Below, piece by piece: positions 14,701 to 50,682 of a DNA stretch of 64,000 nt. Position 1 is the stretch's first letter. Each line of letters opens with the position of its first letter. The notes below the pieces were generated by a model that made no database searches, was not told where the DNA came from, and saw only the letters and a list, made by a program, of their open reading frames with translations. Origin of the DNA: Cryomorphaceae bacterium (GTDB taxonomy: Bacteria > Bacteroidota > Bacteroidia > Flavobacteriales_D > Sanyastnellaceae); assembly GCA_016124575.1 (NCBI GenBank), contig WGNM01000021.1:1-64000 (forward strand), read 5' to 3'. The translations under genes and the position numbers were made by a program.

Positions 14701-17700
14701 TGTAGCTGAAATAGACGCACTGGAGAAAGAAAACGAACAATTGATTGCTGCTTCTAAGTTCTTCACAGCTAAAAATGAACTGCAGGTGACCGATGCACAA
14801 ACAGCTTATGAAGCGAGCAGAAAAGAGGTTATCGACGGCAATTTGAGCTATGAAGAAAAACTCAGAGAACAAATCCGATTGACTGAAAAATATTCAGAAA
14901 TGTTGTCTGCTATAACTCCTGAATCAATTGCAAACCCCGCTGAAAAACAAAAGCTAGAATCGCAAAAGGCTATGTCTGCAACGAAGCTTGAGAACTACTA
15001 CAGCGATTTAGATTTGGTAGTGTCTGCAGGTCAAGAGCCCAATACATCGAATTCAGCAAGTCTGAATTCTCTTCCAGAGAACGATATGATGGCGATAGCT
15101 CAAATTTATCCTGATTACGACAAAGAATTGGTAGCTGCTGAAAAACTTTCGGGCATAGAACAAGAAGCAGAAGTTCAAAGAATAAAGGAAGAATTGACAT
15201 CCCGCGCTGAAGCGGAAATGGAAAAGCGAACCGCTGCTATCGACCAGACTTCAGATGAAGCGGAAAAGCAGCAGTACCAGCTTGAAATCATGCAATTGGA
15301 GAGAATTGGAGGTATTGAACGCACTGAACGTTTAGAGTCGGTTGTTGAACTCGCTTTGGTAGCAAAGCCAGTTGAACCGGCGAACATCAACAACCTGAAT
15401 GAAAATACGGAGATGATAGCGTTGGAGACTGAATTGCAGAAGATAGATAGTTATGCTGAAAACAGTGTAAAGCTTCAAAATAGCCAAGCAGAAATTGAGC
15501 GTTTGGAAGACTTGATGAAGGCTGCCGACTCAAACCGCGAACAAAAGAAGATCGATTCGCAAATTGAAAAGCAATATTTTGAGCGATCGCAAGCAGAAGC
15601 CCTGACGACAAGAGCTATAAACTTCGCTGCTGAAGAAAAATTCAATGCAGCGGCAAACGATATTCGCATTCGCTTGAATGAAAATCGGGTTGCTTGGGCT
15701 GATAACGACATTTTAAGCACGCACTTCGCCATCGAGCAAAATAGATCACGCAACTTAATGGCTGCTGCAAAGCTTACCAGAGAAGAAGCGGCGCCAGAAA
15801 TCGACGAAGTCCGTCAAGCTCATGAATACCGCCAAGCTGCCGGCATGCAATTGGAAGCGTTGGCCATCCAGACACGCCTGAACAATCTCATTGATCGCCT
15901 TCCGGAGTTGAGTGATATGTCGGACGAAGAACTGACAGCCTTGTTAAGCGGCGATACTTTGAAACAAGAATTGGCGCAAACAGAAGAGACTTTGGCCGAG
16001 AATGTAGAAGCTGAATCAACAGAGGAATCGACTGTTTCTATCGAGTCGGTTGAAACAAACTCTGAAGTGGAAGAATCGACTGTTTCTAACGAATCAATTG
16101 AAACAACCGCTGAAGCAGAGGAAGCAACTGTTCCAAGCGAAACAGCTTCAGTTGTCGAAACTACAGAAGCCCCTGTAGATGTCCGCATGGCAGAAATGCA
16201 GAATCTAAAAACTGCTTTACCAGCAACATTGGAGCTTGATCTAAAAGCCATCGAACTTTCGGCAGAAGCAGAAGAAGTGATGAACTACGAGACGCTTTGG
16301 GCAGAGGTTTATAACTTGAATGCCGCTGAAATATCCACCATCGGAAACCGTGATGAAATCAAATCGGTGAATGCACAGCGTGAAAAATTGGTATTCGCTA
16401 CCAGCAACTATCGCGCAGCGCTGCAGGTGAGAAACGACGAAGCAGCAAGAATGCAACAGGTTATAGATAAGATCGCATCTGCTGAGCAACGTTATGACGC
16501 ATCCAGCGATCAAGCTGAGAAAGCTGAAATAGTTGAAGAATTGAGCGTTCTATATGCTGAGGCAGAGGTTATTAATGTGAAACTTAAATCAGCAGAAGAA
16601 GCTCTGGCATCCAACGAAGTTGTTGTGGTAAATGAAAGTGAAGCACTCACCCAAATGATGATCATGCTTGATGCCGCAGAGATAGTGGAGGAAACGCGCA
16701 CCAACGATGTAACATTGGCTGCTGAGCGAAGCACGGCTGATACTGAAACAACAACTGCTCCTGTAGCAAATGTTATCCCTGAAACCATCGCAGCACTTCC
16801 TGAAGAGTCGGCCGCACCTGAAAACTATGCTACTTCAAATCGTTTTGAAGACTACTTGTTCAAGTTTCCAAAACAGCTAACCGCTGAGGTGTTCGCATTT
16901 ACTGATAAGGCTGCCTATGATAGCAAGCAACCCATTCCGATAAACCCTGTTTTGCCAGAAGGACTGGTATATAAGGTTCAGGTTGGTGCGTTCAGAAAAT
17001 CACTGCCGGCAAATCACTTTGATCAATTTGCGCCACTTTCGGGTGAGAAACTCGAGAATGGTATTACAAGGTATACTGCAGGACTTTTCTTGAAATTCAA
17101 CTCAGCGAATGAAGCTAAAACGGCCATCCGTAAGAAAGGTTATAGCGATGCTTTCGTTGTTGCTTTCATGAATGGAAGGCGTATTTCTCTTACTGAAGCA
17201 CGAAAACTCATTGAGCAAAGTGCTCCTGGAACTACCTCTGAAGATGCTGTAGCTGCAACAATCACCAATGCGAAAACTGGGAATGCTACGACCACAACCG
17301 GTGGTAGTGCAAACGATTCAAAGCCAGCGGCTGCGACAACTGTTCCTGCTAAGCCAGCTGCTGTTTTACCGGCAATTGCAACCGATTGGACGACAGCAGC
17401 AGGGGAGTACTACACCGTTCAAATAGGTGTGTACTCAAAGCCAGTGGCGTTGAAAGATATGTACGGACTGAACGAAATCATGGCTGAGCGTTTGAGCAAC
17501 GGATTGGTGCGATACACAACAGGGCGCTTCACATCATTGAAAGAAGCTGAAGCACAAAAAGCGAAAGCCCGTGGAGCAGGTATCAAAGATGCGTTCATCA
17601 CTGCTTATGCCAATGGTAAAAAAGTAGCACCAGCCAGCATAAATCCCTCTGCAAGTTCATCAACCACCACACGGTGGCAAGTAGAAATCGGAACTTTTAC

Positions 17701-17970: not shown

Positions 17971-19602
17971 ATGAGAACCTTTTTTTTGATTTTATTACTG
18001 TGCCAATCGGCACGGATGTTTGGTGCTATCTTCATTAATGAAATTGTTGCATCGAACAATACAGGTATTCAAGATGACTTTTTCCAGAGCAATGACTGGG
18101 TTGAGTTTTACAACAATGGAGGGATTGTAAACCTAGCTGGTTATTACCTTACCGACAATCCTCAGAATCTTACAAAATGGCAGATTCCCGCTACCAATGG
18201 AGGTTTGACAACCATACTTCCGAATAGCTACCAGATTTTTTGGCTGGATAACGATATCGATCAAGGAGAAGATCACGTAGGTTTTACCCTGAGCAGAGAC
18301 GGAGAATCGCTCATTTTAGTAATGCCCGACGGATTAACGATTGTGGATCACATTGATTTTCCTGCCCAGCAAACCGATATTTCTTACGGACGATCTTGCG
18401 ATGGATGTCCGGATTGGATTTTCTTCGATATCCCAACACCGGATGCTACTAACGGATACATTCAACCAGAAAATGCACTGCTCTTCATCAACGAAGTAAT
18501 GACTGTTAATGGCAGTTATATAGACGACAATTTCGGAGAATACGACCAATGGTTTGAAATCTTCAATCCAAACGATTTTCAAGTCAATTTGGCCAACTAC
18601 ACATTTGACCTTGGAGGCGGAATCAGCTGGCAAGTGCCAAACAACGACCCGACCTCCACAGCAATTCCAGCCAATAGTTTTCAGATTTTTTGGACCGACG
18701 GACAAGTCGATCAGGGTACAAATCATGCCAATTTTTCTCTTCCTATTGAAGGAGGTAGCATCATATTGTCGGGACCTGATGGTGCCAACATCGATACGTA
18801 TATATACGAAGCCGCAACGACGAATAATTCATGGGGACGTTTTCAAGATGGCGGCTTGGTAAGTATCAACTTTGGGTCACCAACACCACGCTTTTCGAAT
18901 CAGCTTGTCTTCGTTATACCACCTGAGTTGTACATCAACGAAATCATGTGTCAGAATGTAGGCGATACGTTAGATACATCCAATGATTATGAAGATTGGA
19001 TTGAAATTTACAACCCAAATTTGATTCCTGTTGACTTGGCTGGATATTGGCTTTCAGACAACCCTGCAAACCCAATGAAGTGGATGGTGCCTACAACCCA
19101 TCCCGATTCATCTATTATTCCACCGGGTGGATTTTTGTTATTCTTTGCCGATGAGCAGCAGGGGCAAGGATGGAACCATACCAGCTTCAGGTTGAACAAT
19201 CAAGGCGAAACCATTACACTAAGAAGTCCGGACGGATTTACCATCGCCGATCAAATCGCCTATCCAGAACAGTTCGCCGATACATCGTATGGAAGGTTTA
19301 CCGACGGTAGTCCACAATGGGTATATTTCCTTGAAACGACACCTGAGTATTCGAACAACGGCGCAACAGTCGAAACACCGACTTTCGAAAAAGACGATTT
19401 GCTGGTGTTTCCAAATCCTGCAACAGCAGGGATGCGCGTAAATTTATCGTTGCAAACCAATTGGATGTTGTTCGATGCACGGGGAAATATCGTAGCCAAC
19501 GGCTTGAAAAGCAGCAGTTTCACCTGTCCGAATGTCGCTTACGGTATGTATTTCCTCCAAACTGATCACTTTTCAACAGTTAAATTGTTGATTCATAACT
19601 GA
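17971..19602 (+). CDS. T9SS-secreted protein with three lamin tail domains
   Basis: A 543-residue protein with a signal peptide. Three lamin-tail (LTD) modules are visible by their repeated signatures: INEIVASNNTG...WVEFYN...VNLAGYYLTD, then INEVMTVNGS...WFEIFNPNDFQVNLANY, then INEIMCQNVGDT...WIEIYNPNLIPVDLAGYWLSD. The last 75 residues form a T9SS type A sorting domain (LLVFPNPATAGMRVNLSL, ending in GMYFLQT...KLLIHN). LTDs are immunoglobulin-like folds; in bacteria they occur on surface proteins and nucleases. No enzymatic domain is present, so a binding or structural surface role is inferred. Confidence 0.88.
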   Translation: MRTFFLILLLCQSARMFGAIFINEIVASNNTGIQDDFFQSNDWVEFYNNGGIVNLAGYYLTDNPQNLTKWQIPATNGGLTTILPNSYQIFWLDNDIDQGEDHVGFTLSRDGESLILVMPDGLTIVDHIDFPAQQTDISYGRSCDGCPDWIFFDIPTPDATNGYIQPENALLFINEVMTVNGSYIDDNFGEYDQWFEIFNPNDFQVNLANYTFDLGGGISWQVPNNDPTSTAIPANSFQIFWTDGQVDQGTNHANFSLPIEGGSIILSGPDGANIDTYIYEAATTNNSWGRFQDGGLVSINFGSPTPRFSNQLVFVIPPELYINEIMCQNVGDTLDTSNDYEDWIEIYNPNLIPVDLAGYWLSDNPANPMKWMVPTTHPDSSIIPPGGFLLFFADEQQGQGWNHTSFRLNNQGETITLRSPDGFTIADQIAYPEQFADTSYGRFTDGSPQWVYFLETTPEYSNNGATVETPTFEKDDLLVFPNPATAGMRVNLSLQTNWMLFDARGNIVANGLKSSSFTCPNVAYGMYFLQTDHFSTVKLLIHN

Positions 19603-46488: not shown

Positions 46489-49023
46489 ATGGCAGAAGGG
46501 GAAAAGATTATTTCGATCAATATAGAGGATGAAATGAAATCCGCCTACATCGATTATTCGATGTCGGTGATCGTGTCACGTGCACTCCCAGACGTGCGTG
46601 ACGGTTTAAAGCCTGTACACAGACGTGTATTATATGGTATGCTCGATTTGGGTGTGCTTTCTAACCGTCCGTACAAGAAATCAGCTAGAATCGTAGGGGA
46701 GGTGCTAGGTAAGTACCACCCACACGGCGATTCATCTGTGTATGACACCATGGTACGTATGGCCCAAGAGTGGTCGTTGCGTTATCCGATGGTAGATGGC
46801 CAGGGTAACTTCGGATCGATTGACGGGGATAACCCGGCGGCGATGCGTTATACTGAGGCTCGACTTCGGAAGATTGCGGAGGAAATGTTGGGTGATCTCG
46901 ACAAAGAAACGGTCGATTTCGCACCGAACTTCGACGATTCTTTGGAAGAGCCGACTGTTTTACCAGCAAAAATACCGAACCTCCTTGTCAATGGAGCCAG
47001 TGGTATCGCTGTTGGTATGGCTACCAACATGCCTCCTCACAACTTAACTGAGATTGTGAATGGTACGGTGGCGTACATAGAAAATCCTGAAATTACCATT
47101 GAAGGATTGATGGAGTTTGTGAAAGCTCCTGATTTTCCAACGGGTGGGGTTATCTACGGTGTTGAAGGAGTTAAAGAAGCCTTTGAAACAGGACGCGGAA
47201 GAGTTGTCATACGCGCGAAAGCGAATATTGAAGAGGTTAGTGGCCGCGAAGCAATCATTGTTGAGGAGATTCCTTATCAGGTGAACAAGGCAGACATGAT
47301 TAAGCGCACTGCTGATCTTGTAAACGATAAAAAAATCGAAGGCATTTCTGAAATTCGTGATGAGTCAGACAGAAATGGTATGCGTATCGTTTACGAATTG
47401 AAGCGTGACGCCATTCCAAATGTCGTTTTGAACAAGCTGTTTAAGTACACTTCTCTTCAGACTTCTTTTTCTGTAAACAACATTGCGCTTGTAGCCGGAC
47501 GTCCGATGATGTTGAATCTGAAAGACATGATTCATCATTTCGTTGATCACCGTCACGAAGTAGTTGTCCGCAGAACTCAATACGAACTTCGCAAAGCAGA
47601 AGAGCGTGCCCATATCTTACAAGGTTTGATAATTGCGATCGATAACCTCGACGAAGTTATCAACCTTATCCGCTCTAGTCCGACACCGGAAGAAGCGAGA
47701 ACAGGATTGATGGAGCGTTTTGAGTTGTCGGAAATCCAAGCACGAGCAATACTTGATTTGAGATTGCAGAAGCTGACAGGACTTGAGCGCGACAAACTGC
47801 GTGAAGAGTACGACGAGTTGATGGCAACGATCAATTATTTGAAGAGCATACTCGACAGCCGCGAATTGCGGATGCAGATCATCAAAGACGAATTGCTTGA
47901 AGTAAAAGAGAAATTCGGTGATGAGCGCAGATCACGCATTGAATATAGCAGTGCTGATGTAAGCATCGAAGATATGATTCCGGATGAAAGTGTGGTTGTT
48001 ACCATTAGCCATGCCGGATACATCAAACGTACTCGCCTCAACGAATACCGCACGCAAGGTAGAGGAGGGGTAGGTTCGAAAGGGACAAGTACGAGAGAAG
48101 ACGACTTCTTAGAACATTTGTTTACAGCAACAAACCACAACTGGTTGCTTATTTTCACTGAGAAGGGAAAATGTTTCTGGATGCGTATTTTCGAAATTCC
48201 AGAAGGAACAAAAGCTTCTAAGGGAAGAGCAATTCAGAACCTTATCAATATTGAACAAGACGACAAAGTGATGGCATACATCCCTGTGTTGGATTTGAAA
48301 GATGAGGAGTATGTGAATAGCAACAACGTTATTCTTTGTACTCGTGAAGGATTGATCAAGAAAACGACACTAGAAGCTTATTCTCGTCCGCGCGTAAATG
48401 GTATAAACGCCGTTACCATTCGCGAAGGAGACCAATTGCTTTCTGCAAAACTCACCGATGGCAACAATGAAATCATCATGGGATTGCGCAGCGGTAAGGC
48501 GATACGTTTCCATGAGAAAACAGTAAGAGCCGTTGGCCGAACAGCTCAAGGTGTGAAAGGGGTAACCCTTAGTCACCCGAAAGACGAAGTTATTGGAATG
48601 GTTTGTATTTCTGATGCGAACTCAGAAATCATGGTTGTTTCGGAAAAAGGATACGGTAAACGTTCACCTTTGGAAGACTACCGTATAACCAACCGCGGTG
48701 GTAAAGGGGTAAAAACCTTGAATGTAACTGAGAAAACCGGTGACTTGATTGCCATCTTGAGTGTTACTGACGAGTACGACTTGATGATTGTAAACAAATC
48801 AGGAATTATCATTCGCATGCGCATTGGAGATTTGAGAGTACAAGGACGTGCCACACAAGGTGTACGTTTGATTAACCTCAGAAACAATGACGAAATAGCA
48901 TCTGTTACCAAAGTGTTCCCAGAAGATGAGGAAGAACAGGAGTTTATAGAAGGCGAGGAGCCTACTACAGGTGATGCACCTGCTTCTGCTGAAGATTCTT
49001 CGGAGGAAACTACTGAAGAGTAA
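46489..49023 (+). CDS. gyrA: DNA gyrase subunit A
   Basis: An 844-residue type II topoisomerase subunit that cuts and rejoins DNA during negative supercoiling. The DNA-cleaving tyrosine is in [18 protein letters not shown]. The quinolone-resistance region reads [20 protein letters not shown], with the usual Ser and Asp, so no classical resistance change is visible. The C-terminal half is the six-bladed pinwheel ([12 protein letters not shown] holds the GyrA box, which marks gyrase rather than topoisomerase IV). The last 30 residues are an acidic tail. It ends at an intrinsic terminator followed by a tandem repeat. Confidence 0.96.
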
Positions 49024-49043
49024 CATAACGACTCGATTTGGAA

Positions 49044-49073
49044 AACCCGCTTGACAGAGTCGAGCGGGTTTTT
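49044..49073 (+). terminator. Intrinsic terminator of gyrA
   Basis: The stem AACCCGCT / AGCGGGTT with a loop of about 11 bases is followed by a T run, 20 bases after the gyrA stop. Confidence 0.85.
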
Positions 49074-49126
49074 GCTTTTTTACCTATATATACAGGTTGT
49101 ATATCGTTTGGATTGAGTTTTAATGA

Positions 49127-49407
49127 CCTATCCGCAATTGAACTGGATCCATCTGACTTCGCTTTATTTCTTAATCCTGTTCAAAAGCGGATAGTTCTAA
49201 TGGACGTCTTTTCGGTTTACGAACCATCCAAAACCTATCCGCAATTGAACTGGGTCCATCTGATTTCGCTTTATTTCTTTATCCTGTTCAAAAGCGGATA
49301 GTTCTAATGGACGTCTTTTCGGATTACGAACCATCCAAAACCTATCCGCAATTGAACTGGGTCCATCTGATTTCTTATTATTTCTTGAATATGTTCAAAA
49401 GCGGATA
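49127..49407. repeat. 107-bp tandem repeat (2.6 copies) built from a hairpin core and spacer
   Basis: Copies start at 49127, 49234 and 49341, exactly 107 bases apart. Each has a 67-base core, and the first two are followed by a 40-base spacer. The core begins TATCCGCAATTGAAC and ends GTTCAAAAGCGGATA, arms that pair over 13 of 15 positions around a 35-base loop. The arms are identical in all three copies, while the loops differ by a few bases and the third loop differs most. Period 107 is not a multiple of three, so a repeated protein is unlikely. The region 49074-49126 before it also has a small dyad, ATATACA-GGT-TGTATAT (49088-49104). Confidence 0.92.
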
Positions 49408-49548: not shown

Positions 49549-50682
49549 ATGAAGAAAACCTTATCTCTTTTATTCGGAATTATGGCAACCACGGCAGCGT
49601 TTGCACAGCCGGATGTAGTATCTGCTTATAATCTGAATTCAGAAGGCCGGTATGAAGAAGCAGCAGTGTATATCGACAAAGCGCTTTTGAGCGAAAAAGC
49701 TGTTGTAAAAGAAAAAACGTGGAGATACCGCGGTGATATTTATACCAATATTGCTTTGGATCCTGTCTTGCGTGAAAAAACACCGGACGCATTGGATAAA
49801 GCGTTAGAATCTTATTTAAAAGCGAGAGAGCTGGATACTAAGAAGAGTTATGCCGTTGAAATCACTACAGGATTAGGGCGAGTGCTTTCACAATCGATGA
49901 ACGTTGCGATTGAAAATTACAACTCTCAAAAGTATGCCGAAGCAGCAAATTATTTCCTCTTAGGAGATAAAACTACATCGGCCGCGTTTGATTCAGCCTA
50001 CACACAAGCCATTTACAATGCAGCTTTGAGTTTTGAAAAAGCCGGAGATATTGACAATGCCGTCAAATACTACAACCGTTGTGGTGAATTGGAGTATCAA
50101 GTACCTGAAGTGTATTTGTTTGTTGCAAACTTATTGAACAACAACGAGCGTACCGATGAGGCTTTGGAGGTATTGAAAGGAGCACGTGAGAAATACCCAC
50201 GCGACAAGAACCTTATCATCGAAGAGTTGAATATCTATCTTCGTCGTGGGAACTTCGAGGCTGCAGAGGCCAATCTGAAGTTAGCTTGTGAGCAAGACCC
50301 GACAAATGAAGTATTGTACTTCAGCATGGGTTCTGTGTACGACAACCTAGGAAAATCTGATGAAGCTGTTTCGGCTTACAAAAAAGCGTTGGAATTGAAG
50401 TCGGATTATTTTGATGCCAACTACAACCTTGGAGCGCTTTACTTTAACCAGGGGGTAGCAAAAGTTAACGAGGCGAACGATGTTCCGCCAAGCCAGAACA
50501 AACGCTACAAGATTCTTTTGGAAGAAGCTACTGGAATTTTCAATACTGCCTTGCCATATTTGGAAAGTGCTCATACAGCCAATCCTGAAGATAAAGATAC
50601 GATGCGCTCGTTGCGCGATATTTATGCTCGTATTGGTAAAGACGATAAGATGCTTGAGATGAAGAACAAGCTCGAGAAGTAA
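49549..50682 (+). CDS. Exported TPR-repeat protein
   Basis: A 377-residue protein with a signal peptide (MKKTLSLLFGIMATTAAFAQ). The mature part is tetratricopeptide repeats, for example SEGRYEEAAVYIDKALLSEK, IYNAALSFEKAGDIDNAVKY, GSVYDNLGKSDEAVSAYKKA and YFDANYNLGALYFNQGVAKV, forming a superhelix for protein contacts in the periplasm. ATG 49549 is chosen because the signal peptide starts there; longer readings run through the repeat zone. It follows gyrA, a neighbourhood often seen in Bacteroidota, and ends at its own terminator. Confidence 0.88.
   Translation: MKKTLSLLFGIMATTAAFAQPDVVSAYNLNSEGRYEEAAVYIDKALLSEKAVVKEKTWRYRGDIYTNIALDPVLREKTPDALDKALESYLKARELDTKKSYAVEITTGLGRVLSQSMNVAIENYNSQKYAEAANYFLLGDKTTSAAFDSAYTQAIYNAALSFEKAGDIDNAVKYYNRCGELEYQVPEVYLFVANLLNNNERTDEALEVLKGAREKYPRDKNLIIEELNIYLRRGNFEAAEANLKLACEQDPTNEVLYFSMGSVYDNLGKSDEAVSAYKKALELKSDYFDANYNLGALYFNQGVAKVNEANDVPPSQNKRYKILLEEATGIFNTALPYLESAHTANPEDKDTMRSLRDIYARIGKDDKMLEMKNKLEK

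Follow-up and report, generated by a model that had tools for sequence, protein, structure and literature searches.

The DNA analysed here (the window) is a stretch of 64,000 nucleotides from a Cryomorphaceae bacterium. Between gyrA and a gene for a TPR-repeat protein it carries a tandem repeat (positions 49126-49407), which was detected by TRF with a period of 107, 2.6 copies, 93% matches, and a score of 492. Its layout is hairpin-spacer-hairpin-spacer-hairpin, with three hairpins, two spacers of 42 nt, and a hairpin as the last element. The features of the locus are as follows:

46489..49023, plus strand: gyrA, upstream neighbour (Pfam PF00521, PF03989)
49042..49072, plus strand: terminator-like hairpin of gyrA, outside the array (inverted repeat, then a T-rich run)
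49129..49193: hairpin 1, left arm 49129-49143, right arm 49179-49193 (sequence, inverted repeat, fold)
49157..49170, plus strand: inner box CTTCGCTTTATTTC in hairpin 1, one mismatch to the consensus TTTCGNTTTATTTC (box search)
49194..49235: spacer 1, 42 nt (sequence)
49236..49300: hairpin 2, left arm 49236-49250, right arm 49286-49300 (sequence, inverted repeat, fold)
49264..49277, plus strand: inner box TTTCGCTTTATTTC in hairpin 2 (box search)
49301..49342: spacer 2, 42 nt (sequence)
49343..49407: hairpin 3, without a spacer after it, left arm 49343-49357, right arm 49393-49407 (sequence, fold)
49549..50682, plus strand: gene for a TPR-repeat protein, downstream neighbour (ORF list, Pfam scan)

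The left arm TATCCGCAATTGAAC (starting at 49129, 49236, and 49343) and the right arm GTTCAAAAGCGGATA (starting at 49179, 49286, and 49393) have the same letters in all three copies, whereas loops and spacers vary. Between the two arms 13 of 15 positions pair, with a 2x2 mismatch mid-arm. In comparison with 200 shuffles, hairpins 1 to 3 each folded better than all or almost all (z = -6.2, -4.7, and -3.0), and the first two 107-nt units share 96% identity. The preliminary description of a 107-bp tandem hairpin repeat by gyrA, present in 2.6 copies with constant arms and variable loops, was thereby confirmed by both TRF and the sequence. The 67-base core given there is 65 nt from arm to arm and reaches 67 only if a flanking C-G pair is counted, which copy 3 lacks. 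A protein-coding reading of the array was rejected, its 87-aa ORF being without a Pfam match, and the same type of scan found no transposase among the five array-neighbouring genes. At Rfam gathering score, the window contains only the bacterial RNase P class A RNA (RF00010; 8832-9169, minus strand), with no match at the array. A separate tandem repeat of 48 bp (2.4 copies) is located at 16020-16132.

A BLAST search of the whole array against its own genome (G000) gave one strong match and, at E values up to 1, many matches to the arms. The arm pattern TATCCGCNNTTGAAC was found 40 times in this genome with at most one mismatch, compared to 11 matches for the reversed pattern as a control. The exact arm, with its 13 specified bases, occurs 19 times versus ∼0.1 expected by base count; six of these copies are inside the array and 13 outside. 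A lone tandem or chance local duplication, which the preliminary description had expected to show no copies elsewhere, is refuted by these numbers. Except for the gyrA array and a single site on contig C59, all exact arms of this family (family A) sit on C44:12-38 kb and C55:8-30 kb. Because both contigs begin within the same HYR-repeat gene, the two clusters probably form a single region of ∼68 kb, which then holds nine of the 11 family A loci in a genome of 3.68 Mb (binomial p ∼1e-14). The HYR-repeat gene itself is giant, encodes a T9SS sorting tail, and is split between the starts of C44 and C55. Another contig edge, the first 400 nt of C48, contains a ∼95-bp tandem repeat with palindromic parts beside a tRNA-like sequence.

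Most family A sites are intergenic, but some lie inside a GH92 and a GT4 gene; single sites are found too, and both orientations are represented. Where sites fall in coding sequence, they agree with natural protein motifs. The peptide VQLRIGGYGP, encoded by one site in the GT4 gene, can be aligned to a strand naturally present in solved GT4 structures, so this site is not a simple insertion. Two arm matches with one mismatch, in an aldehyde dehydrogenase gene and a transporter gene, are probably due to chance. The box TTTCGNTTTATTTC has eight exact copies in 908 kb, all of them within 90 bp of an arm of family A or of family C (see below); allowing for one mismatch, it is also found in two hairpins of the window array. 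Two other readings were rejected. With C44 and C55 set head to head, the sign of the GC skew beyond the cluster does not change from one side to the other, which speaks against a replication origin or terminus. Exact arm matches in viral and genome collections, examined by a check for the longer arm, were scattered 15- and 18-mers, which speaks against a phage or another genome as the source.

The copies of family A are clustered around a transposase-derived gene, gene A (G000:C44:17625-18491), on a different contig from the gyrA array. It encodes a protein of 289 aa with weak matches to IS1595 transposase domains and has hairpins on both sides (C44:17319-17462 and 18614-18652). The genome contains seven more diverged relatives of this gene, of which one is truncated at the end of its contig, and most have a counterpart in a congener, which is represented by one genome of 85% completeness. 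An association of the hairpins with gene A predicts that its paralogues own hairpin families as well. Therefore, we scanned for hairpins around each IS1595-type gene and found such families for three paralogues. Gene B (C4:109916) adjoins hairpins with the arm TTTTCCGCwwTTGTACA, gene C (C44:73164) hairpins with the arm AATTATmCGnnnnnTTGCA, and gene D (C32:61443) hairpins with a TATCCGC..TGTA-type arm. A hairpin is located 111-164 nt upstream of the start codon in each of genes A to D, and likewise in the congener genes where they are readable; gene B has an extra closing arm 18-35 nt past its stop codon. Family B arms cluster mostly on C4:49-123 kb, and family C arms on C44:49-94 kb, C55:33-47 kb, and a few other contigs, with one control match each. 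With at most one mismatch, families A, B, and C have 27-42 arm matches each, mostly intergenic and some in genes. Families A, B, and D form tandem arrays with a period of 100-107 bp and unrelated spacers; one hairpin pair on C44, 118 bp apart, is an exception in spacing. For the paralogues on C31, C61, C2, and C22, the scan found no hairpin family, just upstream sequences that resemble a single arm. Overall, at least four systems of a gene plus its repeats (A, B, C, and D) are present in the genome, and their site sequences differ from one another.

In an alignment, proteins A to D keep the zinc-ribbon cysteines, the half of the protein with the HTH, and the C-terminal YxQxYLxEF-type motif, and the CxxC pairs are invariant. 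They lack all three catalytic D-D-N(E) residues, which are present in relatives from the genomes G087, G009, and G025. Against the NCBIfam model for IS1595 (NF033547) they score 55-69, below the cut-off of 75, compared to 181-195 for two D-D-N relatives; PF12760 is likewise matched below its cut-off. Between the two species dN/dS is 0.13-0.27 for genes A to D versus 0.03-0.13 for four neighbouring genes. The values for A to D indicate purifying selection, and the proteins are therefore kept by selection. In the congener, an assembly gap and stops break up gene B, whose state there is uncertain.

Comparable hairpin loci are common to both species and are found in the same places. Only the tandem copy number differs (at C44:17.3 kb, C32:59.8 kb, and C44:93.5 kb), and no gain or loss of single hairpins was seen at the loci compared; the gyrA locus was not found in the congener genome, which is 85% complete. 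Seven intergenic hairpins (families A, B, and D) were identical across species at 206/216 positions in the arms (95%), 66/95 in the loops (69%), and 576/770 in the flanks (75%). At three family C loci both arms have changed together between the species, thereby keeping the palindrome. All 60 exact A and B arms have A/T at the two central positions, but in 22 of 29 hairpins these positions do not pair (tandem copies are included in these counts, which are therefore not independent). This pattern favours duplex half-sites over a folded strand. Thus, the suggestion in the preliminary description that the folded arms matter is supported only in part, because the arm centre points to half-sites in duplex DNA instead. 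Target duplications were also raised there; no clear ones (8 bp) were found at the hairpin flanks. The two flanks show a weak excess of similarity (0.709 versus 0.619 in shuffles), a trace consistent with decayed target duplications. Recent mobility of the hairpins is unlikely.

Outside the genus, a genome of the same family (G060) has several inward-facing arms on each side of a degenerate IS1595-type gene, and also another copy that resembles a simple IS. A genome of another family (G182) carries at least five diverged single-copy IS1595-type genes with terminal repeats, as well as eight further facing terminal-repeat pairs of 190-214 bp on contigs C2, C7, C8, and C9. Three of these pairs lie within 10 kb of one gene, and the three pairs that were compared have non-homologous interiors. 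The pair lengths show a suggestive periodicity of ∼11 bp (p ∼0.03 after scanning periods). In the stretches scanned, no hairpin families of the A-D type were present near the IS1595-type genes of G182, G269, G090, and others. Single-copy IS1595-derived genes therefore recur in the order, while hairpin families of the A-D type were seen only in the genus of the window.

From these sequence comparisons, we consider it probable that the array represents a non-autonomous site pair, present three times in tandem, that belongs to a domesticated IS1595-derived transposase, the product of gene A, with the hairpins as putative paired binding sites. Each hairpin would represent two terminal-repeat copies of the transposase in facing orientation, separated by a short and free interior. 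Despite the loss of its catalytic residues, protein A most likely still binds the half-sites as duplex DNA and in pairs. The pair just upstream of gene A is among the predicted bound sites, and self-regulation is thus probable. We infer that the sites arose by transposition: copies may have been seeded while the element was active, or through local duplication, and their present change would mainly concern tandem copy number. Several observations count against this explanation, namely the sites in GT4 and GH92 coding sequence, which simple insertion does not explain, the paralogues on C31, C61, C2, and C22 without a hairpin family, the placement of the gyrA array on a contig other than that of gene A, its locus not being found in the one congener genome, and the lack of any gain or loss of single hairpins between the species at the loci compared, so that mobility was not seen. 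The initial view of a non-autonomous REP/MITE-like element was largely right, given the terminal-repeat-like arm and the copies clustered around a transposase-derived gene, but the gene is an IS1595 (DDE) derivative and not a RAYT.

The hairpins could also be still-mobile selfish elements of the MITE or REPIN type, moved in trans by IS1595-type proteins or by an active copy related to them. The terminal-repeat structure and gene association, the tandem copy numbers that changed between species, the weak flank similarity, and the many paired terminal repeats in G182 would all fit. We nevertheless regard this as unlikely, since proteins A to D lack catalytic residues, comparable dispersed loci are common to the congener at a dS of ∼0.5-0.9, and clear 8-bp duplications were missing. 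Regional clustering, conservation in place, and the fit of in-gene sites to the reading frame would also fit chromosome-organising or partition-like sites of the parS/matS type, bound by an unrelated host protein and close to a transposase-derived gene by coincidence. Such a coincidence appears improbable, because four site families each adjoin a different paralogue of one gene family.

A structured RNA, or a transcription attenuator or terminator, would account for the stable folds and for the intergenic position of the array after gyrA. But gyrA owns a separate terminator-like hairpin, the array belongs to no Rfam family, the arm centre is often unpaired but always A/T, and sites can be single, lie within coding sequence, or point either way; this reading, and with it the RNA repeat proposed initially, is improbable as well. 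A true RAYT system, that is a REPIN of a Y1 tyrosine transposase, shares the layout of repeats flanking a gene, paralogous groups with their own repeats, and tandem clusters (PMC2817692, PMC3116915). The associated genes are of the IS1595 type with a zinc ribbon and match IS1595 models instead of Y1/HUH, and as read from the sequence the arms have no GTAG-type head, which makes such a system very improbable. We give practically no credence to an array of integron attC-like cassettes: the folded repeats, variable loops, and rough size would agree, but the arm ends ATTGAAC / GTTCAAA do not match RYYYAAC / GTTRRRY, and the three units contain no gene cassettes. The same negligible weight falls to a chance local duplication, which explains the tandem structure but not the 13 exact arms outside the array.

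In REPIN/RAYT (TnpA-REP) systems, facing short inverted repeats flank single-copy, diverged transposase-derived genes, with one repeat group per gene and tandem arrays that include the flanks (PMC2817692, PMC3116915, PMC8266576). Similarly, the repeats described here are facing pairs forming hairpins, each of genes A to D has one repeat group, tandem arrays occur, gene A is flanked on both sides by hairpins, and gene B has a hairpin upstream and an arm after its stop codon. In contrast, A to D are of DDE IS1595 origin without catalytic residues, whereas RAYTs are Y1 tyrosine enzymes with the active site kept; our arms have no GT(A/G)G head, number tens instead of hundreds, and are strongly regional. 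Members of the IS1595 family (ISXO2-like) are characterized by a zinc ribbon, an HTH, a C-terminal motif, and terminal inverted repeats (PMC8101967). Proteins A to D share the three protein features and the sites share the terminal-repeat form, but the proteins fall below the family cut-off without D-D-N(E), and their genes are single-copy and apparently vertically inherited, with no clear 8-bp duplications. MITEs of DDE elements resemble the hairpins in having terminal repeats without a gene between them. They differ in that the interior of our hairpins is almost absent or without shared sequence, and in that the hairpins are conserved in place, with some sites inside genes. Rickettsia palindromic elements are palindromic repeats inside reading frames, like some of the sites described here. 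Their sequence is unrelated to our arms, and our sites in coding sequence agree with natural motifs and do not add an insert; we know of no cognate gene for these elements.

In the open-licence literature we found no published IS1595-derived system of this kind. As a tentative extension, it is possible that a DDE lineage has been domesticated repeatedly within one genus, giving catalytically dead putative DNA-binding proteins, each with co-evolving paired sites over tens to ∼100 kb. These would be region-specific chromosome-binding or regulatory systems derived from transposon ends. The well-known bacterial precedent is REPIN-RAYT, in which a transposase gene is vertically retained and linked to a repeat population of its own, and the same arrangement in a second, unrelated enzyme lineage would suggest repeated evolution and not a quirk of Y1 enzymes. 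Since catalysis has apparently been lost while genes and sites are under selection, the role of such repeats in the host could be addressed here apart from their movement, and the presence of four gene-site pairs in a single genome provides a built-in test of specificity.
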